From Ianthella basta (lineage: Eukaryota > Porifera > Demospongiae > Verongiida > Ianthellidae), in NCBI GenBank assembly GCA_964019415.1, contig OZ025872.1:6363322-6427321 (forward strand): a stretch of DNA of 64,000 nt. The letters are read 5' to 3'. Position 1 is the stretch's first letter. The number at the start of each line of letters is the position of its first letter. Shown here piece after piece: positions 11,421 to 51,129 of this stretch. The notes beneath the pieces are model-generated. The model saw only the letters and a program-made list of their open reading frames with translations. It was not told where the DNA came from and searched no databases. The position numbers and the translations under genes were made by a program.

Positions 11421-11927
11421 GCGATATGGTAGCTAAGTAGACTGTCTAAATTCTCAATCATCACCAATACTGCTTCCCCAACTACTTACTAAACTATAAT
11501 ACCTATGTCTCCCACAGCAGTAGACAGCTGCAGCAGAAGGGAGGCTGAGCAGAATCAGTGTACACAAAATGGAATTCGTACACTGGCACATGCACTCTGG
11601 TTGATCATAATGTGTCAGTGAAATAGTGGCAGAGGAACACAACGTTTCGCCTTCTGTCCAGGTTCTAACCTATAGCTAGTCCAGCAACACTGATAGAGAA
11701 AGAAGGAATACCTTTGCTACTAAATATAAACTACACCGACTCATTCCTTCTGCTCTGTTTGATTAGAGCTCACGCACAAATGAAACATACTTTATTACCG
11801 ATCGATTCCACTAACCTTATGGAGTTAATTGAAACTATCAGACAATTTTACACATTTTCTGTGAATACTCTCTGGCCATGTACAATTGCAAGTACATTCC
11901 GTATACTCACGTGCAACCTCCATATAT

Positions 11928-14498: not shown

Positions 14499-17400
14499 TT
14501 ATATGAATTGCTTTGTGGCATCAGCATCCTCGTAGACATGCTGTTCGTTCCGTCTCCTTTGCACCACTGCTACAATGAGAACCACAAACACCAGCCCCAT
14601 CACATCTAGTAGTAATGTAGCGCTCACCACTACTGCTATTATAATGCCAATAGTCGACATCTGCAGTGACGACAGTCCATTGTCAGGAGTGGCCTGAGTC
14701 TGTTGTACAGTGCACGTGGTGCTTGATGGTTGAGTGACCATGTTGGATGGTGATGGAAGAGCCACAGAAGTTGAAGGAGGGATGGAGATAAGGATACTAC
14801 TTGAGAAAGGTGTGAGACTGGATGGTAGACTAAGTGTTGGGCTGCTAGGAGCTGACAAAGAGACAAGGGAGAGGTAGGTGCATATTAAAGTAGGTGGGTA
14901 CATACAATTGTAAGGGAATGCAGCGTGGGATTACATATGTGCATACTATATAAACAATCACTTACTGACTGATCGAGTCATCAATCATGCAATGGTATAC
15001 ATAGACTACCATCAGTACAGTCTGGCTTACTTGCATTGTTTCATTAAAATGCAGAGAAGAGCAACAATACGGTTGTCATATTGCTCAGAGAAGGAACCGG
15101 CATGCAGGCATCACATGGGGTGCATGCAGGTTTCCTTTACACCTCAGCCAGGGAAATGATACAACCAACATAGCTGTCAGTGTGTAGCTGACACATCTGC
15201 TGCTGACCTGGAGAAATCTTCTCTTGATGAATGACCAATTTAAGCCATATATACTGAGACCCGAAAGCGCACTATATTCTCCTCAACCATTGTTGTGAGT
15301 AGCTAACAACTTTCGGAAGATGAGTGATGATGCAAGGATGTGCTTATAAACTGATTCGCTGCCAGAGCCAGCCAAATATTTTGAATCTATGTATAACACA
15401 TGAAATGCTGACTAATAATTTTATTTGGTGTCTCTGAAGGCCGGATTAGATCACTCAGCACTTAGGCATTTCACGCCCTCAAGCCTCATGACTTAAACCT
15501 CAGAGACAACTCTAGGTCAGCATTTAACTATTACATGTATACATTGTTCCTTTGTGGAGTTATAATTATGGCCCTAACATTTCATTAATGAGAACAAGCA
15601 GTCTTATGTTTCTGGCTGTGAACTTTCCAATGGACTTGTATAACAGGTTATCACACATTGGAAGGATAATATTATGATTGTGTATTAAATAACTCAATCT
15701 ATCTTTCATATAATGTACACAAGCATTGCTTATACATAGCTATACAACAATGTAGCAATCATTATTAACAGTAATCAACACAGTCTTTCATGCAATTATA
15801 GACAGCTTATTGTATTTTGGTTGATATAGCAAATAAATATCTCACTTTGACTCAACTGATGATGAGTAGTCATGAAGAAGAAACATTGGAAGTGGAATAC
15901 AATGGTCAAACTTTTGTTGCATGGAAGCGGTACTGCACATTACTGCACATGTTCTGCACATGCAGTTTGATGCATGACCACATGTACACTGTCACATACT
16001 ATACCGTAGCTAAAAATAAAAATATGATCTTGGCTATATATACTGTGACTGTGCAAACATAGCTACAAGCAGCTGAGCACTCACCAACAGGTACTGTGAT
16101 TAATCCAGTGAATGTTGAAAATGTGTCTCTTTCGAGACACTGATAGGTACCCAGCTGCTGTTGCTCAAGTGGATCAAATATTAGCTCAGTTCGACGGACA
16201 CCACCACCTAAATCTGTCTCCTGCAAAGCATAGCAAGTATATGACACCTGAAATTCCAACCAGAAGATATCATGGTTGCATGGTCACAGCTGCCTTGAAG
16301 CAGCCTCTAACAATTGCTTGATCTTCTATACTTGTCTCATATGATACAGTACAGAATTGTATAATAATTATACACAACATTTTACTGCAAATTGTGATGG
16401 GTGCACCACTCTCTCTTACGGTTACAGAGATGTTGCGTTGGCCATCTTGTACTACCTGGTTAGACTGCAGCCACAGCAGTGGTAAAGTGACGTCAGCAAG
16501 CTCACAGATTAGCCTGTACATGTAGCCCAGCCTGGCATCGGTTATATCAGAAGGTTCAATAATCACACGTACTGCTCTACCTGTGTAGGTGTTGATAGGA
16601 ATATGTGCAGTCATTTGTGGGGTGATTATATTCTTTTAAATTTGAATTATAATCTACTAGCTGCAAGGCCCCCGCCTTCGGCAAGCCCCGTAGGAGGGTC
16701 CAGTGTATACTGTAAAGTGGTCGAGTGCGTCCTGTAGAGGGGTCCTGTACGTTTATCGCAGATCCAAGATGGCCGACGTCGGGTCATCCTGGGTTTTCGC
16801 CGCGCGCTCCTCGGCAGCAGCTTACTTTAGCACGTCTACCACCTTATATTGATGTGAGGTACAGCGCACGACGGCTGGGGACGTTTGGGCACGTTTCGTC
16901 GACGTTCGCGAACAACGGTGGGGTTCTTCTTTTGTATTGGCAGCATAGGAGCGTGCGCGGAAAACCGTATATTTTCTCCGTAAATCCAAGATGGCGGACG
17001 GTCGTTTGGAGTTTTTTTCGCTGCGCACTCCTCGTCAGGGGCTTCTTCGCGCACGTCGCCCCCCTTAGATTGAGACCGGATGTGGCATCCGTAATCTGGG
17101 AAAGTTTGGTGTCCATAGACCTTTTTCCCGAGGGTCACGTGCGATGACGTCACCGCCCCCCGTGTAAGGCAAAAGCTGTAGGCGACTTATAGCAATTATA
17201 CGGCGTTGTTGTAGTTATAGTCTAGTTGCAGTAACGTAACGATGATCGCGATGGAGGTGGATGCTCTAGGTGAATCTCTGAGGTCTACCATCAATTCGCA
17301 GTCTCTTTGAAAGAGTTTGGAGAGTGCTACGGTGCCTGTGCTGCAGAAGCTACGCAAGCTATTGAAAATAACGTTTAGCAACAAGACGAAACAGGAGCTC

Positions 17401-20010
17401 ATCGATGCCCTTCTAGGATACGCGGCCACGCACGGCCTATTTCTCCTCCACAACTCCAGCAGGACCAACTGATGGCACTTCAGAAGGTGATGCTAGTACC
17501 TTGGGCTGTTTCCTCTGCCCGCACCTTTTCTGATATCTTTTGCTCTTGCACCAGTTGCTTCTGCATTCTCCAAGCTCCTTTCTTAATGTTAACAATTGTT
17601 GGAACATAGTCCACGCCACTGGGATCCTCAGAAGGTTTGCCTTCTACAAAGTGCTTTCCACAAATGCGCATCCCTGATGTGGGCCACCAATCGACAGCAC
17701 GACGACAACAAACTCCTTTGATCCACAACTTCGTTCTCTCTTTGTCAGAAAGAGGAAAACGAAAGAATCAATATGGACATGACGAGACACCCCGATTTGT
17801 GCAGCTGCCGGCAGCACAAGAAGAAAGCATGACTGACAATAAGCGCCTTCGGAAGCGCATTTCGGCTAGCATCCGGTACTTCTGCCGCTCGTTCTTCGTA
17901 ATATAGCTAGCTAAGAGGAGCCAGAGATTTTGACTTGACATGGTTTAAGAGCAGGGCAATATAGGTTATGTCTACAAAGAATGCACGCATAGCCATCATC
18001 CTTGCGCTAGGAGGCAGAGAGCGAAGCGACCGAAGTCATGTTACTTCGCGGCCACTTCGCTCTCTGCCTCCTAGCTAGCTATGCGTGTGCCCTAGTTACC
18101 TCTTGTGCATTCATTCCTTTCTGATTCAACCCTGTATAACCTATTTTGGTCTGCCCTCAAAGCATACCCAGTTTAAAGCTCTGGGTCAGCTTAACTACGA
18201 AGAACGAGTGGCCCAAATACGCACTCTAACATATTATCGCTGGAGCTTTTGCCTTACACGCTCGCGGGCAGCATGTCACGTGACCAATGTGACAAAGGTC
18301 TATGCGCCGTTGCTCGCGGGAGGAGTTCGCGAACAACCGTTCTGCTCACTCGTTCTTTATATATACTGGCTGCATGCCCGCCCTTCTGGTGGGTTCCCAA
18401 CATTAGTCACGCGACGCCTGACTATCCCAACATATCGTTTGAAATTTGAGCGTTTAACCAATCAGAACCGTCCATTCAATTGGGAGTATTCGGTAGACTC
18501 GTTCCGTAAAACTCCGTACGTACAGAATTTACTTATGTTAACCCATTTCGTTTAAAGGAGTCCAGCGGCAAAGGCACTAACCACCTTAGATCACTCCCCG
18601 TATTGTCGTGATATACTCTTCCAAGTTTGGCGAAGATTGGTGAAAAATCAAAGGGGGAGTTCGTGCACAACCAAACACGATCTATTCCCTATCTCTTAGA
18701 TATGGCGGCGACCGTAAAAGTGGCAAGAACTCGGACGGAACGACCTTAAACTAAATTTCGGCTCGGCGAGGTTACTCACAGTCCCCCTCATCGTAATCCT
18801 GCCAAGTTTCGTGGCATTTCGTCCAGAATTGAAGGAGATTATCCCGAACAACGAAAATGTGCGTTACGCTTATTATAATAAGATAGATTACTAGCGGACA
18901 GACCCTCCCTTCGGGCGGGTCTCTCCGTGTGCTCGGCGTATGCCAGCTGGTCCGACATGCCATTGCTACTCAGGCCCCAGCTAGCTTCTAATACATAGGG
19001 CACACATGCGCACTGCCCTTAAAAATGATATAATATAAGAATGATAATGGAAATAGAAGTTCTAGATATCTGTCATTCTCTAAAGTTCATTGTTTAAATT
19101 AGCCCCAGTAAGAGTTTTGATTCAAGTCGCTTCTAGTAACCAGCTGACCAGCTTGTAATGCACTGGCTGGTCATGCATGCTCTGACAAAGAATAGTCCAA
19201 GCTGGCCTGGTGATGTCAGTGTGACTGACCTACCATGTGTGTATGCAATTTACATGGAAGATCACCGTAGACAAACAACAGATAGTTGTAAGAAGCTGAT
19301 GGTTTCTGTGTGTGAGATAACCCCCTTTTCTTTTTCTCCGCTTCGGTATCGCGCTAGCTTGGATGCGCGAACGCCTAGGATACGGCATACTTTAAGCTTT
19401 CTTTCAAGAGCCAAGATGGCCGACCGTCGGTTCATCCTGGGTTTTCACCACACGCTCCTCGGCAGCAGCTTATTTTAGCACGTCTACCACCTTATATTGA
19501 TGTGAGGTACAGCGTGCGACGGCTGGGAACGTTTGGGCACGTTTCATTGACGTTCGCGAACAACGGTTGGGGTTCTTCTTTTGTATTGGCAGCATAGGAA
19601 CGTGCGCGGAAAACCGTATATTTTCTCCGTAAATCCAAGATGGCGGACGGTAGTTCTGAGGGTTTTCGCCGCGCGCTCCTCGGCAGGGGCCTCTTCGCGC
19701 ACGTCGCCCCCCTTAGATCGAGACCGGGTGTGGCGTCTGTAATCTGGGAAAGTTTGGTGTCCATGCGCCGTTGCTCGCGGGAGGAGTTCGCGAACAAACG
19801 TTCTGCTCAACTCCTTCTTTATATATATAGATGAAGAGACAAAGGATGAGAACTCATATATACAGTGGCTAATGCAGTCTGGTAAGAGCAGCCAAAGGCG
19901 CACAAACCAGCCATTACTTCAGAATTAATGTAACCACTTAACATTGGCATGGATATTTGTACAAATATCCATGCCAATGCCATGTAGACTGTATGTGCAT
20001 GGACAAACAT

Positions 20011-20073
<63 letters not shown>

Positions 20074-21271
20074 AAAAATATTCAATGGAGAGTAGAAGCG
20101 ACTTGAATCAAAACTCTTATCCACAGGCACAGGGCCCTGATCCAGGTTCAGATTTGGATACATATGGGAACAACCCATACATTCACCTGCTAGCAGTGAA
20201 TGCCTGAGGTCACTGCATGCGTGAGCAATGATGGCGAAGATGATTGGATTGTGTTATTCACCACTTTGGACTGGTGTCAGTGATATGTAACTGACAGAGT
20301 AGACAGCAAAGAAGGAGGTGGAGGAGAATGCACATATTTTAGTCAGGAGTAGAGGGTCTGCAACTTCATTTCTTTGAGGGTGGAGAACGAAATAATTATG
20401 TGGACTGCTGTGACTATTTTAGTGATGGACAGACCCAGGATGATGACTTTGGTGCAGTGCCAATCCATTTGCTCATTTATTATATACATGCCAGGCATCG
20501 CTGTAGCAGTCTGGTTTTGCGTTGGTTTTATGTTTTTTCCACAGGTGTAATGTGAACAGTGAATTGTAGCTAACACGGCTCTACATCTAGATCACTATGA
20601 GCCTGATTTTACATGCCTGTGTGAATATATATCAAAATCCTAATATATCCCAGATCACAGTGAAAGGGGAGTAGTAGATCCAGCTATAATCCTTGTTATG
20701 ACCTTAGGATGTCTAGAAGTAACAGTGAATTGCATACTGAACATGTGGGAAATCAACCGTTACACAAAATCTGACCAATGTGCTGTTTACACAATTTCAA
20801 GGCACTGTACAGTAGTATTGTACTGCATGTCAGGTGTGCCAGCATGATGATGACGGTGAATATAATGGCTGTTTCAATAAGACTTACAAGAACTAGAAGC
20901 TGTGTGTGCTCACTCTGTCACACGTACCCTAGCTGTCCTGAATTCCCACAGAGATTACACACAACTATTAGACCTTTCCAAGAAGTGTTGTGCAATAGTG
21001 CATGGAAGCAGGGAAAGGGCTGGCAATACTAGACTACAGAGGTATACATAATGGCCGGAATTTCTGGCAGAGAACAAGAACATAATAGCATAGTTTTAAC
21101 CTGAGTGTCACCCTATTAAAGTTTTTTTTCTCCGCTGGCCATTCCAGTTTCCTTATTAAATGAAGGAGACTTTGAAATTCCCCTTTTCGAGCAAACCCGC
21201 CTACCTGTTTTTCCCATGCAGAGCGTCAGCAGCAACACAAGAAGGCCACACCTTGATATTTCGCGCGCCAT
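14499..21271 (-). CDS. Receptor A: single-Ig transmembrane protein, short tail, 238 aa
   Basis: Minus-strand exons: 21271-21205, 16580-16420, 16220-16085, 14851-14499. All junctions are GT-AG with phases 1, 0, 1, giving 239 codons with the stop. Exon 1 is a signal peptide (MAREISRCGLLVLLLTLCMG). Exons 2-3 form one Ig-like domain: YRLICELADV and LLWL supply the first Cys and core Trp, and LGTYQCLE the second Cys. Exon 4 encodes a Ser/Thr/Pro-rich stalk, a membrane segment at about residues 188-218 and a tail of only 20 residues (QRRRNEQHVYEDADATKQFI). Asp204 lies in the middle of the membrane segment, where paralogue B has Val199. The short tail follows from a deletion relative to B. It is probably a surface receptor or adaptor-pairing protein; the ligand is unknown. 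A Helitron cluster fills its first intron. Confidence 0.78.
15000..15800. other. Intron 3 of receptor A, conserved with receptor B
   Basis: No coding exon seen. The sequence aligns along most of its length with 26390-27150 of unit B, so it is part of the duplicated unit. Confidence 0.5.
17480..17840 (-). pseudogene. THAP-domain gene fragment inside the Helitron cluster
   Basis: On the minus strand one frame reads a THAP-type zinc finger: a CAAGSC cysteine pair, then FVFPLSDKERTKLWIKGVC, then a tryptophan-containing WWPTSGMRICGKHFVEGKP with the CxxH pair, and YVPTI as the closing proline motif. A Lys/Gln-rich stretch follows. No start, no catalytic region and no convincing downstream exons were found. 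THAP domains occur both in host genes and in P-element-like transposases; which was the source is unclear. Its position suggests capture by the Helitron. Confidence 0.6.
18008..18074. repeat. Hairpin with about 20-bp arms
   Basis: CTAGGAGGCAGAGAGCGAAG and CTTCGCTCTCTGCCTCCTAG are exact reverse complements separated by a short loop. It lies inside the Helitron cluster and could be a small MITE; no target duplication was established. Confidence 0.75.
20013..20071. repeat. CA microsatellite in intron 1 of receptor A
   Basis: A pure (CA)n run of about 58 bp. Unit B has a longer (CA)n at the equivalent place (28577), so the locus predates the duplication. Confidence 0.95.
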
Positions 21272-21535
21272 CTCACCTCGATCACTTCGCACTCCGCAAA
21301 CAACCCCTATTTCACACGACCACTAACTTTCTCTTGGTAAATATATCGTGCAGATAGTCTCCCCTGGCCAGCCCTTTTATATCCATCGCATCCGCCATTG
21401 CGCAATAAGTCCTCCTGGAATGCTTGATCGCACTGGATTATGATTGCACTCACTATGTAAAAGTTGAATACGATCTGAATTAAACGACTAGCTGGGATCC
21501 CAGCTAGCTAGCCATAGCGCTAGCTCGCGAAGCTA
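21115..21535 (-). promoter_or_regulatory. Promoter and first-exon block of receptor A
   Basis: This block is duplicated at 31495-32070 in front of receptor B. Upstream of the ATG at 21271 the minus strand carries a TATA box, TATAAAAG, at 21381-21374, about 100 bp from the start codon. Further upstream GCGCAATGGCGG, a YY1-like motif, is conserved in both copies. In the B copy the TATA sequence is changed (CTAATAGG), so the two paralogues may differ in basal expression. Confidence 0.55.
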
Positions 21536-21950
21536 CCCTTGGAGCTCCAGTTTAAGGAGATCGAAGTTTTGTTCCATGCTCTGGACTCATTTTTCCTTAC
21601 ACATGCAGCCCAAGTGACATGTCCTCCTCCAACAAAGCGCTTAGCATAGCTAGCTAGCAAAATAGCTGTAAGCGTTCCTCCGGGTTACAAACGGGAGGAA
21701 CGCCCTAACTGAATTAGGGCAGAATACAGTGCAGGCTATCATTTTATGGCCACCATCATTAGCGAATGCTCGATCTCTCAACCAGTATAGACGAATCGGT
21801 TTAAGTTCACCATAATTGGAAAGCAAAATCATGCAGTGTTAACAACATTTGGACCTACCACCCAACATTCCCTGGTAATTGTAGGTATTACTCAACATCA
21901 TCCTCGGCGTGACATTTGGAAAGGCGCTCACAGAGAGTAACTATTAACGG

Positions 21951-22172
21951 TCAGAAGTTATATGTATTAACGGTCGGCAGCTCGTAGTCTGCGCCCATGA
22001 TGCTGGAGTTGCCGCTACGTACAGCATAGAGGCTCGCGTACTCGGCCTCTTCGTGGTTCATGACAGCGATTCGAAATCCACATGCAACGACAGAGATAAG
22101 CGGGCATCTTAAACTGTATCGGGTGGTGTGATATATTACCGGCCACCATGAATTCATGAATTTTTCACACAC
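21951..22172 (-). CDS. Possible terminal exon with tyrosine motifs
   Basis: A minus-strand frame ends in a tail with closely spaced tyrosines: EEAEYASLYAV, then GADYELPTV and a final NTYNF before TGA. A splice acceptor (GATACAG) lies at 22119-22114, and the frame continues from it. It sits between relic tail C and the promoter of receptor A and could be the last exon of another receptor gene, but no membrane or Ig exon can be joined to it. It may be non-coding. Confidence 0.3.
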   Translation of the reverse strand: MCEKFMNSWWPVIYHTTRYSLRCPLISVVACGFRIAVMNHEEAEYASLYAVRSGNSSIMGADYELPTVNTYNF

Positions 22173-22199
22173 AAATTTAAACCTACCTCACCGCTTGTG

Positions 22200-22815
22200 A
22201 AGCTAATAGAAATTATCAGTCTGACAGATAATTGTACACATTTTCTGTGGATACTCTGGCAATACAAATGCATGCATGCAAGTACAGTCTGCATACCCGC
22301 ATGCAACCTTCATACTGCACGGGATGTTATCTGACTGCATTACAGCTGCAGACTACAACTTTATTTACAACAACGAATGATACAAACTCTTCATCATTTG
22401 ATCACATGTATGCATGAGCCTGGGAAGCTTGTGTTGTTTCAAGCACTTAGCCGATACATGATACATTGTGAGCTGTCTGAATTACAGATATTACAGTGAG
22501 GGCAAACATAATACTAATGTAATTCACTCAAATTGAATGTCACATGATTATCACCATCTTTATCTATGAATTATGTTTCAGAGTGATATCTATGCAATGA
22601 AAAATTGCTAACAACACTATCACACGTTAGCATGATCTCCCGAGGTGATGGTGTCCCCAATGGACTGGTAGTCTGGGCAGTCCTGCATCGCAATGTCATC
22701 ACCATTGGCTAATGTAGAGTTGGTACCGTTAGTTGTGGGCGAGTGGTTGCCTATAGTAACACATGGGTATGGAATGCATTTTTTCTCATGCATGAAAAGT
22801 TGGAGTGTACGCACA
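22200..22815 (-). pseudogene. Relic C: tail exon and 3' region of a third receptor copy
   Basis: The frame 22814-22620 matches the C-terminal tail of receptor B (DCPDYQSIGDTITSGD, then HANV and the same stop context), and 22200-22610 matches the 3' flanks of A and B. No stalk, membrane or Ig exon was found upstream. The second tyrosine of the ITAM-like pair is His here (HANV in place of YANV). It is best read as a remnant of an additional tandem copy. Confidence 0.6.
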
Positions 22816-23025
22816 GGAAAAACATTTCCTGCATTCTATACAGTTCCCATTGTTGTTAACATGAATGCAGTGTATACAAGGTATGTTTCAAACTGGTAAT
22901 ATCAAGTAATAATTATGTATAGGTGGTTTCCTGGACGAAACTGAAATGGCATAGACTGCTGTATAATAATTATATAGCGTAGGCTGTGTTTCCTAATCTG
23001 TGAACTGAGTGCACATTTGAGTGCT

Positions 23026-23212
23026 TACGGCCGATTTCAGAATGGTTGTCCAAAAGGTAAATGGCAAATGGCGTGACGTCATAGCAAAATTAATGGCAAT
23101 ACTGTACAGTAGGAGTGACGTAGTGGCAAGCAGTTAAGCTATAGTGACATCACGCCATTTGATCATTCTGCCATTTGCCATTTTGGCCAGCTTTTCTGAA
23201 ATTGAGTGTACA
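23026..23212. mobile_element. Imperfect palindromic MITE
   Basis: The left half (TTTCAGAATGG..CCAAAAGG..AATGGCAAATGGCGTGACGTCA) mirrors the right half (TGACATCACGCCATTTG..CCATTTTGGCC..TTTCTGAAA). Related copies with the same GTGACGTCAT..GACATCAC(A/G)CCATTTG core are nested inside both 1.75 kb elements (about 51866-52050 and 56260-56440). Confidence 0.6.
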
Positions 23213-24930
23213 TACTAGTTGAGAGCAGTTGAAGAAATAACCCAGTTTGTTGTTTAGGAACATATTACGTGAGAGTCAACAGTTTTGTTTACCAGTGAAG
23301 GCAAGCATATGTTTCTCATTTAAGTTGCTGCATGAATACATGTTTCCACACTCAAAACAACAGGTCCACATTGCATGTACACAATTCTTATACAGTTTAT
23401 ATGACATCGTATTAAGTTTAGGAGTGGCATTCACACCACTAATCTGGTGTGCTTGTGCTTCTCATTACTATTTCAGGTAGCTATATATATTTTGCATGGG
23501 GTGCACAATAGTCCAGGACATTTGGCATGGGGCATAGAATAGCCTAGGACATTTGGCATGGGGTATAGAATAGCCTAGAATATTTTGCACCCAGGTTACA
23601 AATTTCCTGACTTCAGGTTTTTCTAAATTTCCTAGGGGATGCCACATTTTTTATAGTATTTGGAATAGGGTACCATATTTCCTGGGGTGTCAAAATGGCC
23701 TGTGACACCGGTACATCCTGATAGGGCAACTGAGCTTACCAACACTTTCATAGATCTTCACCAGATCCTGCTAGCTAGACAGCTGGACATACTCTGCCAC
23801 ATTCTGTATAGCTCTAGCTCTTCTGTCTTTTAGCAGCGATTTCATCTGGTACATCTTCTTCCAACAGGATGCTGCTTTCATTCTTCCTGGCATGGCTTCT
23901 GGCAACTTCTATTTGTTCATCATAATATTCTTCTATTTATTCGTCTCATTCAGCTACCTGGCCAATTTACTTCTATATGACATTGCTTCTGAGAGTTGCC
24001 CTGAAAAAATTTGAAGGTGCACGGTATACAATAATATTGCAGCCACCACCACCTGTGCCAGTAGAGTGTCTGCGCCAGTTGGTCATAGAAAAAGACCACC
24101 AGTGCAAGTTACAGTGCATGGGCCTAGGGCAGCACACGCACCATTCACACCGCCACATGTGCCAGAAAGTAAATCCGCTCAATGGCTGAAAAAGACCACC
24201 AGCGCAAGTTACAGTGGGTCAGTTTCAGGTCAATTTCACTTCTGCTCCAATTCAACAGATTCTCTAACTTTAATTGACCGTTGTACAGCTAGCTACATGG
24301 GCCCAAGTGTCTAGCTAGCTAGTCCCAAGTAGCTACAAAGAAATTAGGAATGCATAGCAAACTTCACGGCAATGTGGTTCATCATGGTGTTGAGTTAATG
24401 TTGCTTGTTTCTACGCTTATTCTGCTTTATAAGAATTTCAATGAGACCCACTTATGAAGTGTGATTGTCCTACTTATGAAGTGGAACACACTGTGCTATT
24501 ATCTCATGAAGGGATGGCCTGGCACAATGGGCAGAACAGGAAGTGTTACCATAATTTCACTTCTACTTCATTTTGTTGAGAGATTTTGGGCCAGTTCTAA
24601 TTGACCCATTAAATTGTTCAACTTAGATATGGGAGACATGTACAGTCATACTTATTTAATGGGACTGACCCACTTATGAAGTTCAACTGTCCTACTCATG
24701 GCAGTTTCAACGAAATTTGGTTTATTTCCTCCAGCTTCTGTCCGAGAGCAGTGAACTTGAGTCCTCTCATTGTGCGACACTTGTGTGTACTTGATTGTGT
24801 TTTGGCAACTCTGAGAATGTGCAAACTGTGAATAAGGTACATACGTAAGCTAGTGACTGTACCATTGTGCACGTGTGTAAAAGTATTTTGACCCGATTCA
24901 TGTCAAGCCCTCAACATCCAACGATGCGAT
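23213..24930. other. Intergenic region between receptor units, dispersed repeats only
   Basis: No gene found. Part of 24190-24860 resembles 30780-31100 (shared phrases such as ATTATCTCATGAAGG and AATTTCACTTCTGCTC), so an unclassified dispersed repeat is present. A short run of near-repeats (GGCATGGGG..ATAGAATAGCCTAG) lies at 23495-23580. Confidence 0.45.
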
Positions 24931-25698
24931 ATGGTAGCTAAGTAGACTGTCTAAATTCTCAATCATTACAAATACTGCTTCCCCAACTACTTACCTAGCT
25001 ATATAGCTATGTCTCCCACAGCAGTAGACAGCTGCAGCAGAAGGGAGGCTGAAGAAGGAGCAGGATCAGTGTACACAAAATGGAATTCATACACTGGCAC
25101 GCTCTCATTGAGTCAGTGAAATAGTGCATAGCAAAGGAACACAACCTCTCACCTTCTGTTCAGGCTCCAACCTACATGGTCCAGCAACACTGACAGAGAA
25201 AATAGGAATTTCTGTACTACTAAATTACACCAAATTATTTCTCCTACTCTGTGCCTACTCTGTGTTTCAATTTGTGTGCACTCACGTGCACACAAATTGA
25301 AACCTATGTACCTCATGATCATTGATTCTACTTCGAAATCATTAGATAATTTTACACATTTTCTGTGGATACTTTTGCCTTACATACCCAAATGCAACCT
25401 TCATACATTTACTGCACAGCTGCAGACTACAATTTTATTTTTACAAGAATTAACCATTTAATTACCACAAAAGTCTCCATCACGACCACATGCATGTGGT
25501 ATTTCAAACACACTTGATACATACATGGTAATACATCGTGAGCTGCCTGACTTACAGATGTTACCGTGAGGGCAAACATAATTATACTAATTCTAAATAC
25601 TAATACTTCTACTAATTCAGTCAAATTGAATGTTACACGCTTATCAAATTATGAATTACTTTTCAGAGTGATCCAAAGAATAATTGCTAACACCACTA

Positions 25699-28570
25699 TC
25701 ACACGTTAGCATAATCTCCCGAGGTAAGTGTGTCCTCAATGGACTGGTAGGCGGGGCAGTTCTGCATCGAGATGCCATCACCATTGTCTGATGTAGTGTT
25801 GGTGTGAGGCATGTGAAGGGGGTGGGGCTCATGGTGTTCAGGGGTGTGGTTCCCATCCAGATTTGTTGGATCACAGTATGTTGTAGACTCGAGTGTGTTG
25901 GCCTCCTGAAGTCTTACACCTCTAGTGGAATTGGCATCCTCGTAGACATGCTGTTTGCTCCATCTCCTTTGCACCACTGCTACAATGGTAACCACATACA
26001 CCAACCCCATCACAACCAGTAGTAACGTAGTGCTCACCACTACTGCTATCATAATGTTAACAGTCATCTGCAGGGACGACAGCCTATTGTCAGGAGTGGC
26101 TTGCGTCTGTTGTACAATAGTGCTTGATGGTTGAGTGACCATGTTGGATGGTGAAGGAAGAGCCACAGAGGTTGAAGGAGTGGTGCAGATAAGGATACCA
26201 CTTGAGAAAGGTGTGAGACTGGATGGTAGTGTTGGGCTTCTAGGACCTGTCAAAGAGACAAGGGAGAGGTATATAGGTGCATATTAAGGTGGGTGGGTAC
26301 ATACAATTGTAAGGGAATGCAGTGTGGGATACATATGTGCATACTATATAAACAATCACTTACTGACTGATCGAGTCATTAATCATGCAATGGTAGACCA
26401 CTGCCAGTACAGTCTGGCTTACTTGCAATTGCATTGTTTCAATGAAATGCAGGGAAGAGCAACAAAATAGTTGTGATTCTGCTCAGAGAAGGAACTGGCC
26501 GGCATGCATGCAGCCATTCTAGGTTTCCATTACACCACAGCCAGAGAAACGTTGTGACCGACGTGGCATTCGGTGTGTAGCTGACACGCTGTATGTGCTG
26601 CTGACCTGGAGAAATCTAACCTGAAGGTGCACGGCATTCTCCTCAACCTTTGTTGTGAGTAGCTAACTACTTCCAGAAGATGAGTGAAGATGTGAGGATG
26701 CGCTTAGAAACTGATTCGCTGTTGGAGTCAGCCAAATATTTCGAGTCTACAACACATAAATAATAACTAATTTGGTGTCTCTGTAGAATTAGATCGCTCA
26801 GCACTAATGCACTGTGCGCCTTCGAGCCTCATGACCTAAAACTCAGAGATATACCTCTAGGTCAGCATTTAACTATTCCAAATTGCTCCTTTGTGAGTTT
26901 CTAATTATGGGTCTTAAAATTTCATTGAGAACAAGTAGCCTTATGTTTCTGGCTGTAAACTTTCCAATAGACTTGTATAACAGGTTTCCACACATGGGAA
27001 GGATATGATTGTGTAACAATCTATACCTTTCCATATAATTTTATATAATATAATAATACAAACATTTATCATGATCACTAAATAGCTACAACAGCTAGCT
27101 TTATTTGCAACAATGTAGCTATCATTATTTACAGTAATCATCACAGACTCCAAATAGCAGACAGCGTGTTGTCTTTTGGCTGGTGTAATAAATACATCTC
27201 ACTTTGACTCAACTGATGTGTATTTTCTACACATGCAGTTTGATGCATGGCCACACTGTCACGTACTATGCAGTAGCTATAGCTAAAAGTATATTCTTGA
27301 CTACATTGTGACAATGCAAGCATAGCTACAAGCAGCTGAGCACTCACCAACAGGTACTGCAATTTTGCCCCTGAATGTTGAAAATGTGTCTCTTTCGAGA
27401 CACTCATAAGTACCCAGCTGCTGTTGCTCAAGTGGGTCAAAAATTAGCTCTGTTCGACGGACACCGCCACCTAAATCCATCTCCTGCAAAGCATGGCAAG
27501 TACATCACTCCTGAAACTCCAACCAGAAGATATCATGGTTGCATGGTCACAACTGCCTTGAAGCAGCCTCTAACAAATGCCTGATCTTGCTAAATATCCT
27601 GTCTGGCTAGATACATACATATGTGTCTATCACCAAACTTCACTAGCCAAAACTTTGAATTAATGAAGCCAAATGTTTCGACAACTATGCAGTTGTCATT
27701 CATCACTAACAATGACAACTGCATAGTTGTCGAAACTTTTGGCTTCATTAATTCAAAGTTTTGGCTAGTGAAGTTCAGTAATAGATATGTATGCCTGATC
27801 TTCTATACTTGTCTCATGATCAATATGATACAGCATTGTATAGTGTATAAAAATTGTACACAATATGTCACTGCAAATTGTGATGGGTGCACCACTCTCT
27901 CTTACGGTTACGGAGATGTTGCATTGACCATCTTGTACTACCTGGTTAGACCGCAGCCACAGCAGTGGTAAAGTGACGTCAGCAAGCTCACAGACTAGCC
28001 TGTATGTGCAGCCCAGCCTGGCATCAGTTATATCAGAAGGTTGAATAATCACATGTACTGCTCTACCTGTAAAGTGTAGATATTGATAGGAATATGTGCA
28101 GTCATTTGTGGAGTGATATATAATTATAATTATGTACATATTATGAAGAGCCAAAGAATGAGAACTGCATGATATATACAGTGGCTAATGCAGTCTGGTA
28201 AGAGCAGACAAAGGCACACAATTTAAAACAGCCATTACTTCAGAATTAATCCAACCGCTTAATGTTTGCATAGATATTTGTACAAATACAGTCTTTTTAT
28301 GTATGTATATGTATTACATTATCTTAATATGCATAATATTATGCCAGTGCTGTTGTGGTTAACTAGCTGTAACTAAAACACAATTAATGTCATAGCATAT
28401 TATGTTATCTCAGGAAGTTAGCTAACTTAACTAGAACATTATTCAACAAGTTGCAGTGTTCTCTTTGCTCGCACTACTACTTGGGTAGAAGGGCCTGTGT
28501 TTGTTGTTTTCCGGGGTCGGGCAAAGATTAGAAAACTTGGACTGTATGTACACAGACAGATATGGACACA

Positions 28571-28661
<91 letters not shown>

Positions 28662-31653
28662 CACACACACACACACATTAGCGGTCCTAATGTAATGTCC
28701 GGATCACTGCAAAAACTACATGGAACAATAATTAATCGAGAACAGAGTGACTGGGAATCAAAGCTCTTATCCATGCCACAGGCACCCCCGGTCCAGGTTG
28801 AAACCTGAATACATTGTCATACGAAATCAATCCGTACATTCTCATGAGCAGTAGCTGCTGGCAGTGAATGCCTGAGGTCACTGTGTGAGCAATGATGGCG
28901 AAGATGATTGGATTGTGTTATTCACCACTTTGGACTGGCGTCAGTGATATGTACCAGACAGAGCAGACAGCAAAGAAGGAGGTGGAGGAGAATGTACATG
29001 TATAACCATCTACTCAATTCCACAATCCCGCATCAATGCCTTTCGATTTTCCTATTTTGTAAATGCCCCCTTTACCTGGAATGAACTGCCACCAAATCTT
29101 ATTCAATCCTCATCCTTATCCACTTTTAAATTCCGCCTCACCAAATTTTTGCTGAATGAATCTTAACCGTCAATCTATTCACTTACTTGCCCACTTAGTT
29201 AAATTCTCTCTTGTTTTATCTACAGTCACCTTTTCTCCATCATTCCCTACACCCCCTGTTGTATTATTGTCCTGCATTGTAAATGTATGTCTTAGGGGAG
29301 CACAATCATAGGCAATTTGCCTCTCATGCAACCCTTTCCCTACGGGGATAAAATCATTTCAAATTTCAAATTTCAGAATTACTCCTCACTCAATAAAATT
29401 ATATACCCTTTTACCTTGCAATTGGTACCTTCTGAACATGTTGTTGATCAGTGCTATATTATTATGAACAGCTCATAGCTATGCCAGCCCCTTTCCTCTG
29501 CTGAGGGGGGGGGGGGGGGGGGGGTGCTGGTTGAAGCAGACCTAGGATGGGGTCAGGCCACATGGGACTAGATTTCTGGTTTACACAATGGTTATAGGTC
29601 AAAGGTAAAGGATCAGAGATTTGCTTTCAGTAATACAGGGTGATCATCCCAACAGAAAGTGGTGTTGCCACAGTGAGCACACTTGATGCTGTAGCTAGAG
29701 GCTCATTGCTACATAGCTGATAATAGGAACAGGGAAGTTTGTGCAGTACATGTTGCATAAGATCGAAGTTAACAGGACGTCATGGCCACATGGACCCTCG
29801 AGAGCCAGAACTCTAGTTTCAGCTGACAAAGGTCTTCAGTTTCAGCTGCATGAGAAAGGCTTATGCAGCCAAATTGTTCAGCTTAACTATAGACCTTAAT
29901 ATGCTCTGTATACTGCTTGAAACTTTCCCTGTTCCAGTTGTGATCACACTTGCATTATAATTAATTTTGTTTTCAGTGTGATATTCAGTCCAACCAGGAC
30001 AAGAGACTACATGGGCATAAACATGCAGCATATATCAGATGTCATGCTCATGATAAATGGTGGCAGCAAAGAACAATAATCGATAGTTTCAGAGGCATAG
30101 GCTATAGATAGGCTATACTTTGATGTACTGAAGACTGCAGTGCACCCAAAGCCAACCTGGAGTACAAATAAGAGAAAAGTGGTGCAGGCTGCTCCTAATA
30201 AACTGAAGGAGGGCCTGATCATGAAAGTGAATATATCTGAATGCTGGTGGCAATCCAATGAGTACAGCATTGGAGCTAGCATGAAGTTTGTGTTCCTGTG
30301 TATTAGCATATACACACCCTATGCCACCATTATATTGTGCTCAAACAGCTTCAGACATAGTCAGCTAAGATAGCTATAGCTATGCTCTATTTCTGCACCA
30401 TCTTATTGACTGGCTTAAGAAAGGGGCCTTAGCCAGCCCAATATTAATTTCACGTAGCTAAAAGGTGTAGCTACAAAGTAGTGAAATAAAAAGTTTCCAT
30501 TAAAGTTTAAAGGGATATATGGCCAGCAGAAATAGCACAGAAACAAGCAGCACAAACGATAAACTACACTTCTGTGGAGTGTACTTAGCATTATGAATTT
30601 TCTTGTACCATATGTCATGGAACTATAGTTAGCTAGCTAATCATACACATTTAAGTCTATGGACAAGGAAACTCTGCAAAAATTAGGCATATCATAGTGC
30701 TGAGCTACTATTGCTTTCATCTTATTGGGTGCCATTCAGGTCAAATCAATGCTATTGTACTTTTGTTGAACTTACATAGCTATCAAATTGTTTAACTTAG
30801 ATAAGGGGGACATGTATGGGACTGTCCTACTTACATATGAAGTGCGACTGTCCTACTTATTAAGTGGGACTGACTGACTGTGTGTGCAATTATCTCATGA
30901 AGGTAAAGCTTGGTACAATGGACAGGAAGTGCATTCTAATTTCACTTCTGCTCTAATTAAACAGATGGACAATCAAGGTGGGCGCTATACTGTGCTGTAA
31001 AATGGTAGGCATGCAGAAGTGCACTCGTGCACTAGATTTGTCTCATGAACAGATGACCTGCACAACAGTGTGAATTGGTGCAAAAGAGGTAGCAGATGGA
31101 TTCACAGTACAATTTGCTAAGAGTTGTCCTTTGCACTACCCAAGCATCTCTGACTGTCACACACCTTTTGCTTCCATGTGACTTTTGTTGACCACCTTGG
31201 ACAAAGAAGAGATTAACTGCGGCAATGTTCTGGATCTGTGCATGCTGTAAGTCACGTATGCCAAGGCCTATGTATAGTGCACGAGTGTGCTTCTAGATCT
31301 GCTTGTCTACGGTTTTCACACATAGGCACCCGTCTCACCCATTTGTCAAGATGGAGCATGCAGAATTGAAACGGTCACATTTCCTACCAACATGCAACAA
31401 AACTTCGTGAGTTGGACAGACAGTCCCATTCATAAGTATTTCATAGCTAAGTTGAACAAAAATACGAGCGCCTAGTTTTGACCTGAATGGCACCCAATAT
31501 AATTTAAGTTTTTTTGCTGGCCATTCCAATTTCCCTATCAAATGAAGGAAACTTTGAATTTCCCCTTTTCGAGCAAACCAGCCTACCTGTTTTTCCCATG
31601 CAGAGCGTCAGCAGCAACACAAGAAGGCCACAGCTAGAAATATCGCGCGCCAT
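25699..31653 (-). CDS. Receptor B: single-Ig transmembrane protein with ITAM-like tail, 303 aa
   Basis: Minus-strand exons: 31653-31587, 28066-27906, 27483-27348, 26246-25699; GT-AG introns, phases 1, 0, 1, 304 codons with the stop. The first three exons have exactly the lengths of those in receptor A. Signal peptide: MARDISSCGLLVLLLTLCMG. The Ig-like domain has Cys48, Trp59 and Cys104 (LGTYECLE). A Ser/Thr/Pro stalk precedes the membrane segment (about 184-213). The 90-residue tail has tyrosines in HVYEDA (223), TTYCDP (245), PAYQSI (288) and DYANV (300). Y288-QSI, eight residues, Y300-ANV resembles an ITAM (YxxI/L-x6-8-YxxI/L) except for the final Val; YAN also fits a GRB2-type pYxN site. 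Kinase coupling is inference. The gene lies head-to-tail upstream of receptor A. Confidence 0.8.
27589..27802. mobile_element. Fold-back insertion in intron 1 of receptor B with 12-bp direct repeats
   Basis: Two arms of about 63 bp (AACTTCACTAGCCAAAACTT..TGACAACTGC and its complement) face each other across a loop of about 12 bp, with weaker pairing outside. The insert is flanked by ATGCCTGATCTT at 27577-27588 and 27791-27802. Unit A has a single version of this site near 16312-16326, so the insert post-dates the duplication, and the direct repeat looks like a target duplication. Confidence 0.75.
28577..28677. repeat. CA microsatellite in intron 1 of receptor B
   Basis: About 100 bp of (CA)n with one AACAC interruption. 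It is the counterpart of the run at 20013. Frames of repeated His-Thr or Cys-Val across it are artefacts. Confidence 0.95.
29005..29375 (+). mobile_element. 3' fragment of a LINE
   Basis: An open stretch encodes the C-terminal signature of LINE polymerases: RINAFRFSYFVNAPFTWNEL, then a Ser-rich link and FKFRLTKFLLNES with TAA. It is followed by a 3' UTR ending in a short AATTTCAAATTTCA repeat, typical of LINE 3' tails. It is 5'-truncated. It begins where the similarity between units A and B stops, so it marks a breakpoint. Confidence 0.7.
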
Positions 31654-32070
31654 CTCACCTCACTTCGCACTCCGCGAATAACCCCTATGTCACACGACCG
31701 TTAACTTTCTCTTGGTAAATTTGTCATGCGGACAGTCTCGCCTGGCCAAACCTATTAGCCACCGCGTCCGCCATTGCGCAATAAGTCCTCCTGGAATGTT
31801 TGATCGCAGTGGACTACGATTGCACTCACCAAGGGCGGATCCAAGGGTGTTTCCAAGGTTTCCAGAAACAGGTCAGATCACCTCTGGCTAGTATTTGCAT
31901 GTATCAGTCTTATAATGTCTATGCTTCCTTATAGCTATACCTTCATGCGTTGGAAACCAGTCATAAATGTTTCTCGATCCGCCCTAGCTCACTATGCAAA
32001 TGTTGAAGACGATTTCCAAAGAATTGAACGACTGGGGTCGCTGCTAGCTAGCCATAGCGCTAGCTTGCGA
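31495..32070 (-). promoter_or_regulatory. Promoter and first-exon block of receptor B
   Basis: Duplicate of 21115-21535, interrupted by a MITE at about 31832. The GCGCAATGGCGG motif and the first exon are conserved, but the TATA box seen in A is not. Confidence 0.5.
31832..31985. mobile_element. 154-bp MITE inserted in the receptor B promoter block
   Basis: Ends AGGGCGGATC and GATCCGCCCT are inverted, with further inner pairing (GGTTTCCAGAAAC and GTTGGAAACC-like). CTCAC lies near both sides. The matching promoter block of receptor A (near 21450) lacks it. Confidence 0.65.
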
Positions 32071-33929
32071 AGCTACTGTAAACCGGTGTCACAGTTTAAA
32101 GTATCCCCCCGTACAAAGTATCCCCCGGGGTAACCGAAAGTCGATTAAACAACAGAGAACTGACGATAGAAGCTAGTACTACTACTGGATGAGACCTCCT
32201 ACTGCTAGTAGAGACTGTTAAACGTCCAAATCTCCAAAACCTTGCACTTCATTTGGGGTGGATGCAAAATATTACGTCTATCGCGTTAACCGACGATCGC
32301 GGGGAAGTTTTGTCTTTGAACTCTGGCTGGGAAGCTTGTACTGTCCCATGGACGCTCTGAGAATGCCAACATGGCCCTACTGCAAGAAACAGAAGTGTTT
32401 AAGCAGCGCCAAGTAGCACGAAGGCGTGCAATTTCGCAAACTGGTGGACATCGTTGTGCAGGTGCAAAGTCGCCGCAAAGTAGCATGCGAAGAGGAGGAA
32501 ATTGTTCAAATGTTAGCAACTACTTGTCCCAGAAGGGTCAAATGGTGGTCACATCAACCCCCTGGGGTAGAATGCACCAAGGAAAGCAAAGAAATACAGC
32601 ATCGGGGGATAAAGCATCCTAGTATATTTTAACCGGGGGATACAAAATCGGGGGGATAGAATAAACCGTGCACCGGTTATAAATAATTATAAGTTGAACA
32701 CTTTAATAGCTAAGTTCAAGACAACGTTAACATAAGTACAATACCACAGATTTGACCTGAAAGACACCCAAAGAAGAAAGCAATGGTAGCTGAGCACTAT
32801 GATATGCCTAATTTCTGAGGAGGTTCTTGTACATAGACCCTATAATGTGTATAATTAGCTAGCAATTAACTAGAAACCAAGTTCCATGTAACCAAGTTCC
32901 AAGAAAGTTTGTAATATTGAGTAAACTCCGTGCACGTGCACAGAAGTGTAGTTTATCATTAGTTGAGTTATTGTTGCTTGTTTCTGTGCTATTTCTGCTG
33001 CTGACCATATATCCCTTTAAACTTTAATGGAAACTTTTATTTCACTACTTTAAATTGTAGTGACACCTTTTGCATATCCAAAGACTATAGATACGTCAAA
33101 TTAATCTTGGGCTGGCTAAGGCCCCTTTCTTAAGTGAGTCAAAAAGATGGTACAGAAATACAGCATAGCTATAGCTATCATAGGTGTATCATGTATGAAG
33201 CTATTTGAGCGCAATAAAATGGCGGCATTATATTATGCTAATACACAGGAACACAAACTTCATGCCAGCTCCAATGCTGTACTCATTGGATTGCCACCAG
33301 CGCTCAGATTTTCACCCTTCATGTCTGTACATGATCAAGTCCTCCTTCTGGGTAGGAACAGCCTGCACCACTTTTCTCTTATGTGTACTCCAGGTTGGTA
33401 TTGGGTGTACTGCAGTCTTCAGTACATCAAAAGTAGCCTATCTATTGCCTATGCCTCTGACACTGTCAATTATTGTTCTTTGCTGCCGCCATTTATCAGG
33501 AGCATGACATCTGATTATATGCTGCCTGCGTACGCCCGTGTAGTCTCCTGTCCTGGTTGAAGTGAATATCACTCTGAAAGCAAATGCAAGTGTGCTCACA
33601 ACTGGAACAGGGAAAGTTTCAAGCAGTAAACAGAGCATAAGGTCTAATTCGGCTGCATAAGCATTCATCAACTGAAACTTAAGACCTTTGTCTGACTCAG
33701 CTGAAACTGCAGTTTCAGCTGACAAAAACATGAGCTGAAACTGAAGTTTTGGCTCACAAAGGTCCATATGGTCAAACCGTCCTGTTAACTTGAACCTTAT
33801 GCATGCAGCATGTACTGCACAACATTTCCTTGTTTCCGTTATCAGCTATGTAGCAATGAGCCATTGTGTAATCCAGAAGTCTAGTCCCAAGTGGCCTACC
33901 CTTATCCTAGGTTTGCTTCCACTGCACAC

Positions 33930-40700: not shown

Positions 40701-43700
40701 CGAATTTTATGTGGTTGGCGGCCATTTTTATGACGTCATTAAGCGTCACCAATATTCAAACGAATAAAATTATCCTTCGAATATTAGGCTACCGAACGAA
40801 TATTCGACTATTCGGTTATTCGTTCGACCCCTACTATTTAGTTCACTGTTGATTCTCTTCTGGAGCATTAGCTCCATTAACAGGTTGATGAGTGCATTCT
40901 CCTCCGGATAGTTGTCAAGTTTCATTAACAGTTACAAAATACCAAAGTTTTTTCCACCCAAGGTGGAACATATCAACTAATGGCAAATCATTGTCTGCAG
41001 AGTGCACAGCAAAGTTTAACATTACAGGTAAATGAGTGGGTAAATTATGAATTTCGCAGGCAAATTATAAGCCTGTTTTGCAACTCAACGTTTAGAAATG
41101 ACCTATCAAAACGGTCGTTCAGCTGATCAAAAGTCGAATTGTTGAGCTAATATTTATTCACACGTCAGTGCAGATGATAGATAGATAGATAGATAGATGA
41201 ATTATTTCAAACAGGAGTGCTGCATCCACAAGAGTGGGTTTTCATGCAGGTCCTGAACAGTACAGATACAAGCATAGGTATATATACACACATAGGCAAT
41301 TAAATAGCTAATAAATAATAGATAAATAAACAATGAATTTCAGGGTCCAGATAAGTAAGACATAGCTATAGAGTTGAGTTACAGATTCAAAATTGCATGC
41401 TTAAAGGATTTCACACTTGATAATTGTCTAATACTTTGCGGTAGTTGATTGTACTGTAAGGCACCTTGGAATTCGAACGATTGTCTGTACATTTCTGTGC
41501 GAGGTTGCGGAAGGTGGAGTTTGTCGGCTCCTCTGGTGGATGAGTAAGTACACGAGTTCTTGACGAACTTTCCTGTTAGATAACTGGGAGCCTGCTTGAG
41601 GACACACCGGTGGACCTGGCAGAGTGTTGCATTGTGTCGCCTCCTGTGGAGGGTGGTCCACCCAAGTTCGTCTCTGAGGGGGGCACTTGGTGTTCGTGGA
41701 GGCTTGTTCAGTACCACTCTCATTCCATAATTTTGTACTCTCTCCACACTTTGGGCGAGGTTGGAACTGCAGGGGTGCCAGATCACCTGGCAGTAGTCCG
41801 CATACGGCAGGACTAGTGAGTTGTACAGCATCCGTTTGGTCGAGAGGGGGAGGTAAGCACTGACTTGTCTTATGCTAGCAATTGCAGCTAGCATTCTTCT
41901 CCGCACTGCTCCTACATGGGACTTCCAACTCAGGTCGTGATCAATAGTTACTCCCAGATACTTGACAGATTCCTGCCGAGGGATGGTTGCCCCATTGACT
42001 TGGACCTTGATCTGTTCTGCCCGTGACCTGGCGGCCCGCCTGCTTAGTACCATCATTTGGGTCTTGCTTACATTCATTGTTAGTTTGTTAGACACAATCC
42101 AGGTGGCAATGAGCTGGAGATCATCATTAATGGCATGTGTCACACAATCAGGATCCTGGTTTGCATAATAGATGGTAGTATCGTCGGCATATAGGTTGAT
42201 GGTACAGCTGGTGACTACAGTAGGTAAATCATTCATGAATACCAAGAATAGCAGTGGGCCAAGAATGGAACCTTGTGGTACCCCTCTTGAGACTGGGGCC
42301 CAATCAGAGTAAGCTGCATTTACCATGACTCTCTGCTGCCTGCCTGAGAGATAGTTTGAGAACCATTGGTGCTCTCCGTTCAAAATGCCATAGGCTGAAA
42401 GTTTGTCAAGGAGTAGGTTGTGATCGATAGAATCAAAGGCCTTACTCAGGTCAATCATTGCAGTTCCGACACATTCTCCACGGTCAAGCGATGCTCTCCA
42501 ATCATCAACAGTCTTGAGTAGCAAGTCCTGGGTGCAATGGGCGGGACGAAAGCCTGATTGACTGGGATGGAGCAAGGAGTTCTCTGTCAGGTAGGTGTAG
42601 AGCTGCTTGTGAACAAGAGACTCAAAGACTTTGGCTATGACTGGGAGAACAGAGATGGGTCTGAAGTCAGATGGCTGACATGCTACTGTACACTTGGGGA
42701 CTGGTGTGACATTTGCCCTCTTCCACTCTTCTGGGATTTCACCACCAGCCAGGCTCTGGTTAAACATCTTAGCCATGCTCGGTGCAATGGCTTCAGCAAC
42801 CATGCGTAGGAGACGAGCTGATACTCCATCCACTCCAGTTGATTTATGCACATTCAACCCTTTTAAAGCAGCCAGGATGTCATCCTCTTCAAGAGGGTGG
42901 AAAGTGAATTCTGACTTGGCCTGGTGCAATGCAGATGGTGTACAATGATGGGCAGGTTGTTTAGCTGAATTGGTGAAATAGGAGTTGAGCTGGTTCGCGA
43001 TCTCCCTGATTGATGTGAGAATACCAGAGCTGGTCTCTAGCTGGGTTATGCCACTCTTCACTTTACGACCTAGGGCTCTGTTCAGCTCATCCCATAGTTT
43101 CTTAGGTTGCCTGGACGTGTTTTTACAGACTCTCTCAAAATGATCTTTCTTGGACTCCCTCAGGTTCATTTTCACTGCATTCCTCAATCTACGATAAGTC
43201 TCCCAGTCCTGTTCATCCCGTGTCTTCCTATACTTATTGCGATAGTAGTTCCGAGACTTCATCATCATACGGATGTCAGCAGAGATCCACTGGTGGCTGT
43301 GCTTTCTTGGCCTTATCCTGATCATAGGGGCATGTTTGATTACAATCTTCATGAAGAGAGTCTTCCAATAATCCCATTTGTCATCCATAGAATCGAAAAC
43401 ATCCATGACTCCCCAGGGGGCCTCCTGCAGATCAGTTAGCAAGGTGTCCACATTGCACTTCTTAAAAGACCGAATCTCCTTAACAGGCTGTGTAGGTCTT
43501 CTAGTTCTCGCTGATCTAGATGCATAAATTAGCATATGGTCACTACCTGCTGGTGGGGTGACTCCAGAAGTGTAGCACATGGGAGCAGAAACAAAACAGA
43601 GGTCGATGAGAGTCTGTGACTGATTAGTCACCCTGGTAGGCTCGGAGATGAGCTGAGAGAGTTGGTGTTCCTCCATAATCGCAGTGAGGTGCTTCGTGGT

Positions 43701-50469: not shown

Positions 50470-50505
<36 letters not shown>

Positions 50506-51129
50506 GCAGAGTGTGTGTCTAGGCCTTGTGTTCACCAGTGGGGTGCCTGTGTGTTCTCCCCTCTCTGCCTACTGCTGCCACTGTGTCATCTGCAGCTCTC
50601 AGTGTTCAGTTTGAGAGACCAGCCTATCAAGTGGGGGAGGGAGATGGGGTGCTTGAGGTTGCCATGGTAACAAAAATCCCTTTGAGTTCTCCTTTAGGGC
50701 TCTTATCACTGCAGTGGATGAGACGGCCACAGGTGAGATATTTGTTGTCATGACAACTGGAGTGAAGATGGACAGAAGATTTTTACAATTATACATTCTC
50801 CTGTCTCCCTCCCCTCCCCCTTTCGCTCCCCTACCCCTCTCTCTCCCCTCTTCCGTCTCCCTCTCCCTCTCCCTCCCCTCCCCTCCCCTCCCCTCCCCCT
50901 CAGCCCTTACTGACTATGATGTCACTGGTTTCCTGTCCACAATTCAAAACATTCTACCTGGCTCCACACGGCATAACTTCAGTGTGAAAATCATTGAAGA
51001 TTCCACTTTTGAAGGAAATGAGAACTTCTCCCTGACACTGACTGTGCTTGACAGCGGGCCACTTGGGATCACTGTAGCAATGCCTGATGTTGCCATGGTG
51101 ACGTTTGTGGACAATGAGAGTAAGTGTAA

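Follow-up and report, generated by a model that had tools for sequence, protein, structure and literature searches.

Two predicted receptor genes, here called A and B, are exon-shuffled chimeras in which an Ig module has been joined to a stalk-membrane-tail exon of the type found in a receptor array on contig C8, as comparison of their DNA with the rest of the genome shows. They lie in the window, a 64,000-nucleotide stretch of contig C5 (positions 6363322–6427321) of the sponge Ianthella basta, and the searches reported here covered the 209-Mb genome. The DNA preserves a readable order of events: a large array contributed a ready-made signaling exon to an Ig module, the chimera was duplicated, and one of the two tails was lost. 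We regard it as somewhat better than an even prospect that the products are chimeric single-Ig receptors, with B signaling on its own and A acting either as a non-signaling counterpart or in dependence on a partner.

Gene models and the two halves of the chimera

A and B are intact minus-strand genes of four exons, with GT–AG introns and without internal stops; their splicing is predicted from the DNA. Gene A spans 14499–21271 and would encode 238 residues, and gene B spans 25699–31653 and would encode 303. The original prediction held that both genes follow one plan, with exons of 67, 161 and 136 nt, then a stalk-membrane-tail exon, and phases of 1, 0 and 1, and these gene models hold in our analysis:

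Gene A, exon 1: 21271–21205, minus strand; 67 nt, start codon and signal peptide
Gene A, exon 2: 16580–16420, minus strand; 161 nt, first half of the Ig-like domain
Gene A, exon 3: 16220–16085, minus strand; 136 nt, second half of the Ig-like domain
Gene A, exon 4: 14851–14499, minus strand; 353 nt with the stop; stalk, Asp-containing membrane segment, ~17-residue tail
Gene B, exon 1: 31653–31587, minus strand; 67 nt, start codon and signal peptide, phase 1 donor
Gene B, exon 2: 28066–27906, minus strand; 161 nt, first half of the Ig-like domain
Gene B, exon 3: 27483–27348, minus strand; 136 nt, second half of the Ig-like domain, phase 1 donor
Gene B, exon 4: 26246–25699, minus strand; 548 nt with the stop; stalk, membrane segment, 89-residue tail (YEDA, YCDP, YQSI, YANV)

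This shared plan goes beyond chance, because two other loci have exons of precisely 161 and 136 nt and relatives of exon 4 turn up at tens of places in the genome. The tails, expected to have about 90 residues with four tyrosines and about 20 residues, measure 89 residues with four tyrosines in B and 17 residues with one tyrosine in A when counted past the membrane segment by a hydropathy rule. Judged from their divergence (dS 0.168 and dN 0.081 over 230 aligned codons, residues 1–235 of A), A and B are recent tandem paralogues, as had been proposed, and their introns are alignable in parts. The values for the signal part (dS 0.129, dN 0.042), the Ig part (dS 0.174, dN 0.068) and the stalk (dS 0.158, dN 0.062) stand beside those for the membrane and juxtamembrane part (dS 0.188, dN 0.154), which is weakly constrained.

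The relatives of the Ig half lie on C5, C14 and C17. Among the matches listed in the genome search, the first half of the B Ig domain is found on these three contigs only, and all eight rows returned by a genome search with the C14 Ig domain lie in A, B and the C14 and C17 genes. The Ig exons of the latter two genes are exactly 161 and 136 nt long, as in A and B, with identities to A over 100 residues of 68% for the C14 gene and 61% for the C17 gene, and the C17 gene has a signal exon (MAREI) similar to exon 1 of B. Both continue with a second Ig-like exon, and past this second domain nothing recognizable was found in the C14 gene (locus L050). The Ig fold is marked by two core cysteines, a core tryptophan and a GxYxC motif; C26, W37 and G78-x-Y80-x-C82 are invariant across A, B, C14 and C17. 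The Pfam ig and Ig_3 models match A and B with E values of 0.011–0.091, below their gathering scores, as is also the case for C14, and we have therefore counted the Ig assignment against our best explanation.

Membership of A and B in the large Ig clusters of this genome (C8 1.7–3.5 Mb, and C21) was considered and rejected, as none of the eight rows of the C14 Ig search falls there. The clusters themselves consist of strong Ig_3 exons at C8 1.76–3.49 Mb and C21 2.05–2.67 Mb and are separate from the A/B family; the genome search for Ig_3 gave at least 150 matches, scored from 1638 candidates.

In the PDB, the sequence of B is best matched by Ig domains from two proteins, obscurin-like protein 1 at E 3.1e-4 and junctional adhesion molecule 1 at E 9.6e-4. 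These matches speak for a different role, in which A and B would be adhesion or self-recognition molecules rather than immune receptors, with tails that anchor them or report contact, and motifs of the same kind are used by invertebrate allorecognition receptors according to extracts of PMC12065747. We consider such a role rather unlikely, though not far-fetched; a large array of varied ectodomains would suit recognition in an immune and an adhesive setting alike.

The other half of the chimera has its relatives on C8. A genome search with B gave 64 matches, and none of those on C8 extends upstream of query residue 75, exon 4 starting near residue 100; they form an array at 7.60–8.04 Mb, apart from a single outlying gene at 6.62 Mb. 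In the C8 loci read, a gene has three parts: a signal exon, one exon for an ectodomain of ~197 residues, and a stalk-membrane-tail exon. Exon 4 of A and B is homologous to the last of these, with entry in phase 1. When a C8 membrane-tail segment was used as the query, the genome search returned 77 rows, 33 of which run from query position 10 or earlier to position 107 or later; as lower bounds, these long matches comprise 32 on C8 and B itself, and three of the 33 have internal stops. The corresponding search with the C8 ectodomain gave, again as a lower bound, 34 near full-length rows out of 38, all 34 of them on C8, the remaining four being partial and one of these on C1. Within the window, a search for the ~197-residue ectodomain produced one chance-level match only (E 0.64).

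DNA similarity to the array extends past exon 4 into intron and flank, and decayed pieces of C8 type lie nearby:

25615–26370, minus strand: segment of B with DNA similarity to the C8 array, covering ~124 bp at the end of intron 3, then exon 4 and the first part of the 3' flank; 34 loci
25049–25252, minus strand: decayed C8-type first exon downstream of B; 17 loci, best E 1.4e-28, protein level E 0.003
22430–22727, minus strand: remnant C, upstream of A, a C8-type tail end (YQSI kept, last motif HANV) with 3' flank; 26 loci
14513–14987, minus strand: part of A whose DNA resembles the C8 array, from inside intron 3 onward as in B; 13 loci
11547–11825, minus strand: remains of a C8-type first exon, lying downstream of A; 15 loci, best E 2.2e-13, protein level E 3.7e-4

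The outermost start in B, at 26370, rests on one C8 gene (L039/L014), the others starting at 26269 or 26057, and the locus numbers given for these blocks are not gene numbers, since some loci are overlapping stretches of the same DNA. In the C8 array the first exon of the next gene likewise comes after a tail exon, and the simplest reading of this order is that a stretch of the array was joined, as genomic DNA, behind the Ig exons. The joined stretch would then, again on the simplest reading, have been duplicated together with A and B; we infer the direction of movement between the chromosomes. Phase 1 was seen by eye at every module join that was read, in A and B, in the C14 and C17 genes and in the C8 genes, which is what exon shuffling classically requires. 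Five other stretches that the window has in common with other loci (24031–24222, 30099–30179, 31830–31987, 32083–32178 and 33371–33450) look like dispersed repeats and were set aside.

The two halves have different relatives, as would be expected if the Ig exons and exon 4 were simply neighboring parts of separate genes, wrongly combined in the gene models. However, the junction, its phase and its splice sites are identical in A and B, and neither the C8 ectodomain nor the second Ig-like domain of the C14 gene was found between the halves in a search of the window at E values up to 1. We judge such an artifact to be very improbable.

Tail motifs and the C8 array

The tail is under protein-level constraint. 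In an alignment of ten tails the tyrosine of YQPI never varies, and neither do P, L, MQ and other residues nearby; the tyrosine of the last motif is aligned, by eye, in seven of the ten, which we have counted against the signaling reading. For codon comparisons, 20 tails and 23 ectodomains were chosen by pattern and pairs with a dS of 0.05–1.5 were kept. Among the tails, dN/dS is below 1 in 186 of 187 pairs, with a median of 0.52 (0.46 for B against 19 C8 tails), and among the ectodomains it is below 1 in 241 of 250 pairs, with a median of 0.62.

Motifs were counted in 33 tail segments and set against the numbers expected from shuffling, with the ITAM pattern taken as YxxL/I-x(6–12)-YxxL/I; one further row, cut at a locus end, was left out. 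The segments are related, so they are not independent trials, and they include A, one membrane-only fragment and two overlapping pieces of one locus; seven in which a membrane part was not recognized were used whole. YxxM occurs in 26 of the 33 segments (4.8 expected) and YxxI in 28 (8.6 expected), the strict ITAM in 11 (0.5 expected) and a relaxed ITAM in 12 (1.2 expected). The docking motif that YANV contains, YxN, shows no enrichment (four segments, 6.4 expected), and an ITIM was found in none of the 33, B included (4.0 expected). B itself carries the relaxed ITAM only (YQSI-x8-YANV), the strict pattern failing with its last motif, YANV, and its tail lacks YxxM, unlike most C8 tails. Because no ITIM was found in the tails counted and the tails of the family are ITAM- and YxxM-like, the long form looks like a signaler rather than an inhibitor.

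The C8 array at 7.60–8.04 Mb (loci L010–L036, L039, L040 and L043–L049, less the C5 loci) holds at least 34 genes with two kinds of tail. The alternative tail exon is almost without tyrosine, and all eight of its matches lie on C8, at 7.84–7.92 Mb. The six loci read there have a membrane exon with a different ending (KDE[N/R]...). For four of these loci the examined stretch includes the new tail exon, whose splice sites were read by eye; tails that carry tyrosine motifs and tails that lack them thus coexist beyond A and B. A tandem tail unit of 26 residues with two tyrosines (CPAYQPIEDTPTSVEYTN...) is present in 13, 8 and 5 copies in L051, L052 and L053, respectively, and in two of the 13 units of L051 (C8:7650000–7652600) N replaces the first tyrosine. 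It is possible that the repeat number varies the signaling dose in these tails. The ectodomain, searched with two members, has no Pfam match at E values up to 1, and matches in NCBIfam and PDB are at chance level only (best PDB E 0.49). With its unannotated ectodomain and tails of up to 13 tandem tyrosine modules, the array is a candidate recognition system and may be a more interesting object than A and B. Four of its tyrosine-tailed receptors (L013, L022, L027 and L035, at 8013, 8025, 8001 and 7963 kb) have a glutamate within the membrane segment, which suggests partner chains.

The short form

Exon 4 of A aligns to B as far as B position 25925 and again from 25662, and the ~262 bp between, containing the tail and stop, are missing in A. 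Its frame ends a few residues past the gap, at a new stop supplied by sequence that is flank in B. The 3' flank of A (14499–14218) is closer to the flank of remnant C (22557–22313, 73% over 284) than to that of B, so the tail may have been lost by unequal exchange with a C-type copy and not by simple deletion.

Loss of the tail, with a stop taken from B-type flank sequence, would also be expected if A were a truncated, drifting by-product of birth-and-death evolution, in which case there would be no functional pair and only B would matter; the relaxed membrane segment and the presence of another decayed copy, remnant C, between A and B point the same way. However, at a dS of ~0.17 A has kept an open frame, all of its splice sites and both core Ig cysteines, and the dN/dS of the Ig part between A and B is ~0.4, although this constraint may sit on the B lineage. 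With C14 and C17 as outgroups, the derived changes in the Ig part number four synonymous and six amino acid-changing in A and two of each in B, with 12 left unpolarized; those of A are too few for selection on A to be read from the counts. We hold it to be a real possibility, short of a probable one, that A is such a by-product.

In vertebrate paired receptors, the activating partner has a basic membrane residue for adaptor pairing. The membrane segment of A has instead an aspartate, where B has valine. Among 23 distinct genes whose membrane segment was caught by pattern, A has this Asp and two C8 genes have Glu, and a basic residue was found in the first 24 positions in none of the 23, A included; a second pattern, applied to all 34 segments, finds Glu in four C8 segments. 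These observations bear on the original prediction that A and B form a pair of the vertebrate kind, with an inhibitory long form and an activating short form. The layout itself stands, with related ectodomains and one long and one short tail, but the long form lacks the ITIM and the short form the basic residue, and the assignment of functions is accordingly not supported: B and all 33 segments are without an ITIM, and the membrane residue of A is acidic. That B inhibits and A activates through an adaptor is therefore improbable, even though the long/short arrangement and the nearly identical ectodomains would fit. A is best read as the tail-deleted counterpart of a putative signaling receptor, not as the adaptor-coupled half of a vertebrate-type pair.

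Proposed mechanism and comparison with known systems

The mechanism that we favor starts from what the sequence shows, the joining by phase-1 shuffling of a signal peptide and an Ig module of the C14/C17 kind to the stalk-membrane-tail exon of the array that is now on C8. B would most likely signal by itself: once receptors were clustered by ligand, YQSI and YANV would be phosphorylated on their tyrosines, to which SH2 proteins would then bind, either as in an ITAM or by docking. A, which arose by duplication and tail loss as its alignment to B indicates, would most likely share or compete for the ligand of B without signaling, as a decoy or brake; alternatively, it may signal only through a partner, helped by the membrane aspartate. 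The C8 array repeats this division at a larger scale, with tyrosine-rich tails, some of 5 to 13 tandem modules, on one side and the almost tyrosine-free tail exon on the other.

Candidate readers of such tails are encoded in this genome, with 70 matches to the SH2 domain and 156 to PF07714, whose model also picks up Ser/Thr kinases and has matches in 9 of 14 control genomes. A Syk-like tandem-SH2 kinase was not recognized in the four SH2 loci read, of the 70 matches; we take these four to be SOCS, PLC-gamma, JAK-like and FES-like genes. As to published reports on Syk, extracts of PMC8662651 tabulate it among kinase families emerging in vertebrates, while extracts of PMC12065747 report Syk-family kinases as expressed in a tunicate. 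With these reports and a Syk-type reader unseen in the four loci, the ITAM reading of the tail is a motif argument only, and docking of other SH2 proteins (PI3K, Src-type) would be just as possible.

Receptors of the Ig type with tyrosine motifs have been reported in vertebrates, tunicates, cnidarians and molluscs (extracts of PMC2413239, PMC12065747 and PMC11999971), and their occurrence in invertebrates is thus already known. According to the extracts of PMC2413239, the inhibitory members in vertebrates have ITIMs and the activating ones pair with subunits that bear ITAMs, and the FcR, KIR, LILR and XFL receptors there resemble A and B in having similar outsides and different membrane and tail parts. 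In A and B the vertebrate combination was looked for and not found: the long form has no ITIM and the short form no basic membrane residue, a trait of vertebrate short forms that is general background rather than a statement of that source.

Among invertebrates, the Alr family of Hydractinia comprises 41 IgSF allorecognition members in a genomic complex (extracts of PMC11999971 and PMC12065747). Like A and B, these are Ig membrane receptors, and ITAM and ITIM motifs are reported on Hydractinia candidates. Going by the available description, the present family differs from them in that its big array has a Pfam-unmatched ectodomain, its Ig genes lie apart and share the tail of the array, and an ITIM was not found. 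For the fuhc locus of Botryllus, extracts of PMC12065747 present the fester family and FcoR as proposed activating and inhibitory families, with ITIM and hemITAM on an Ig receptor family; by this description, our tails differ in carrying YxxI and YxxM, some in tandem, and they are known from genes alone. The oyster CgIgIT2 is also an invertebrate Ig receptor with an ITAM of its own, but it has five Ig domains where A and B have one, and a tail-sharing array goes unmentioned in its description in the extracts of PMC11999971.

In the open literature, as incompletely covered by titles and the starts of abstracts, we found no description of the A/B-C8 family or of ITAM-type receptors in sponges, and within the same scope neither tail-sharing between an Ig pair and an array with other ectodomains nor tandem tail modules. 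A broader and more tentative view, which we think unlikely to be right in full, is that a lineage branching early among animals possesses a modular receptor system of its own, in which a single signaling cassette, made up of a membrane segment and a tail of 1–13 tandem tyrosine modules, has been combined with at least two unrelated ectodomains by phase-1 shuffling and each branch has signaling and non-signaling forms. Pairing of opposed outputs would then have arisen independently of vertebrates, through deletion or exchange of an ITAM-like tail and not through addition of ITIMs.

The window contains other features. An intact frame of 1101 residues at 41382–44684 on the minus strand has PHD, endonuclease and reverse transcriptase matches and represents a non-LTR-type retrotransposon. 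At 49435–51415 on the plus strand there are Calx-beta matches that fall short of the cut-off, some of them narrowly. Calx-beta is a domain of sponge aggregation factors, and the proximity of such a gene to A and B was considered as possibly special; this was ruled out by the at least 150 Calx-beta matches in the genome (scored from 969 candidates), which lie on several other contigs and are mostly clustered on C11, C6 and C23. Finally, the window has two arrays of 29-bp tandem repeats whose units are almost identical, with nine copies at 51128–51391 and 29 copies at 53145–53992.
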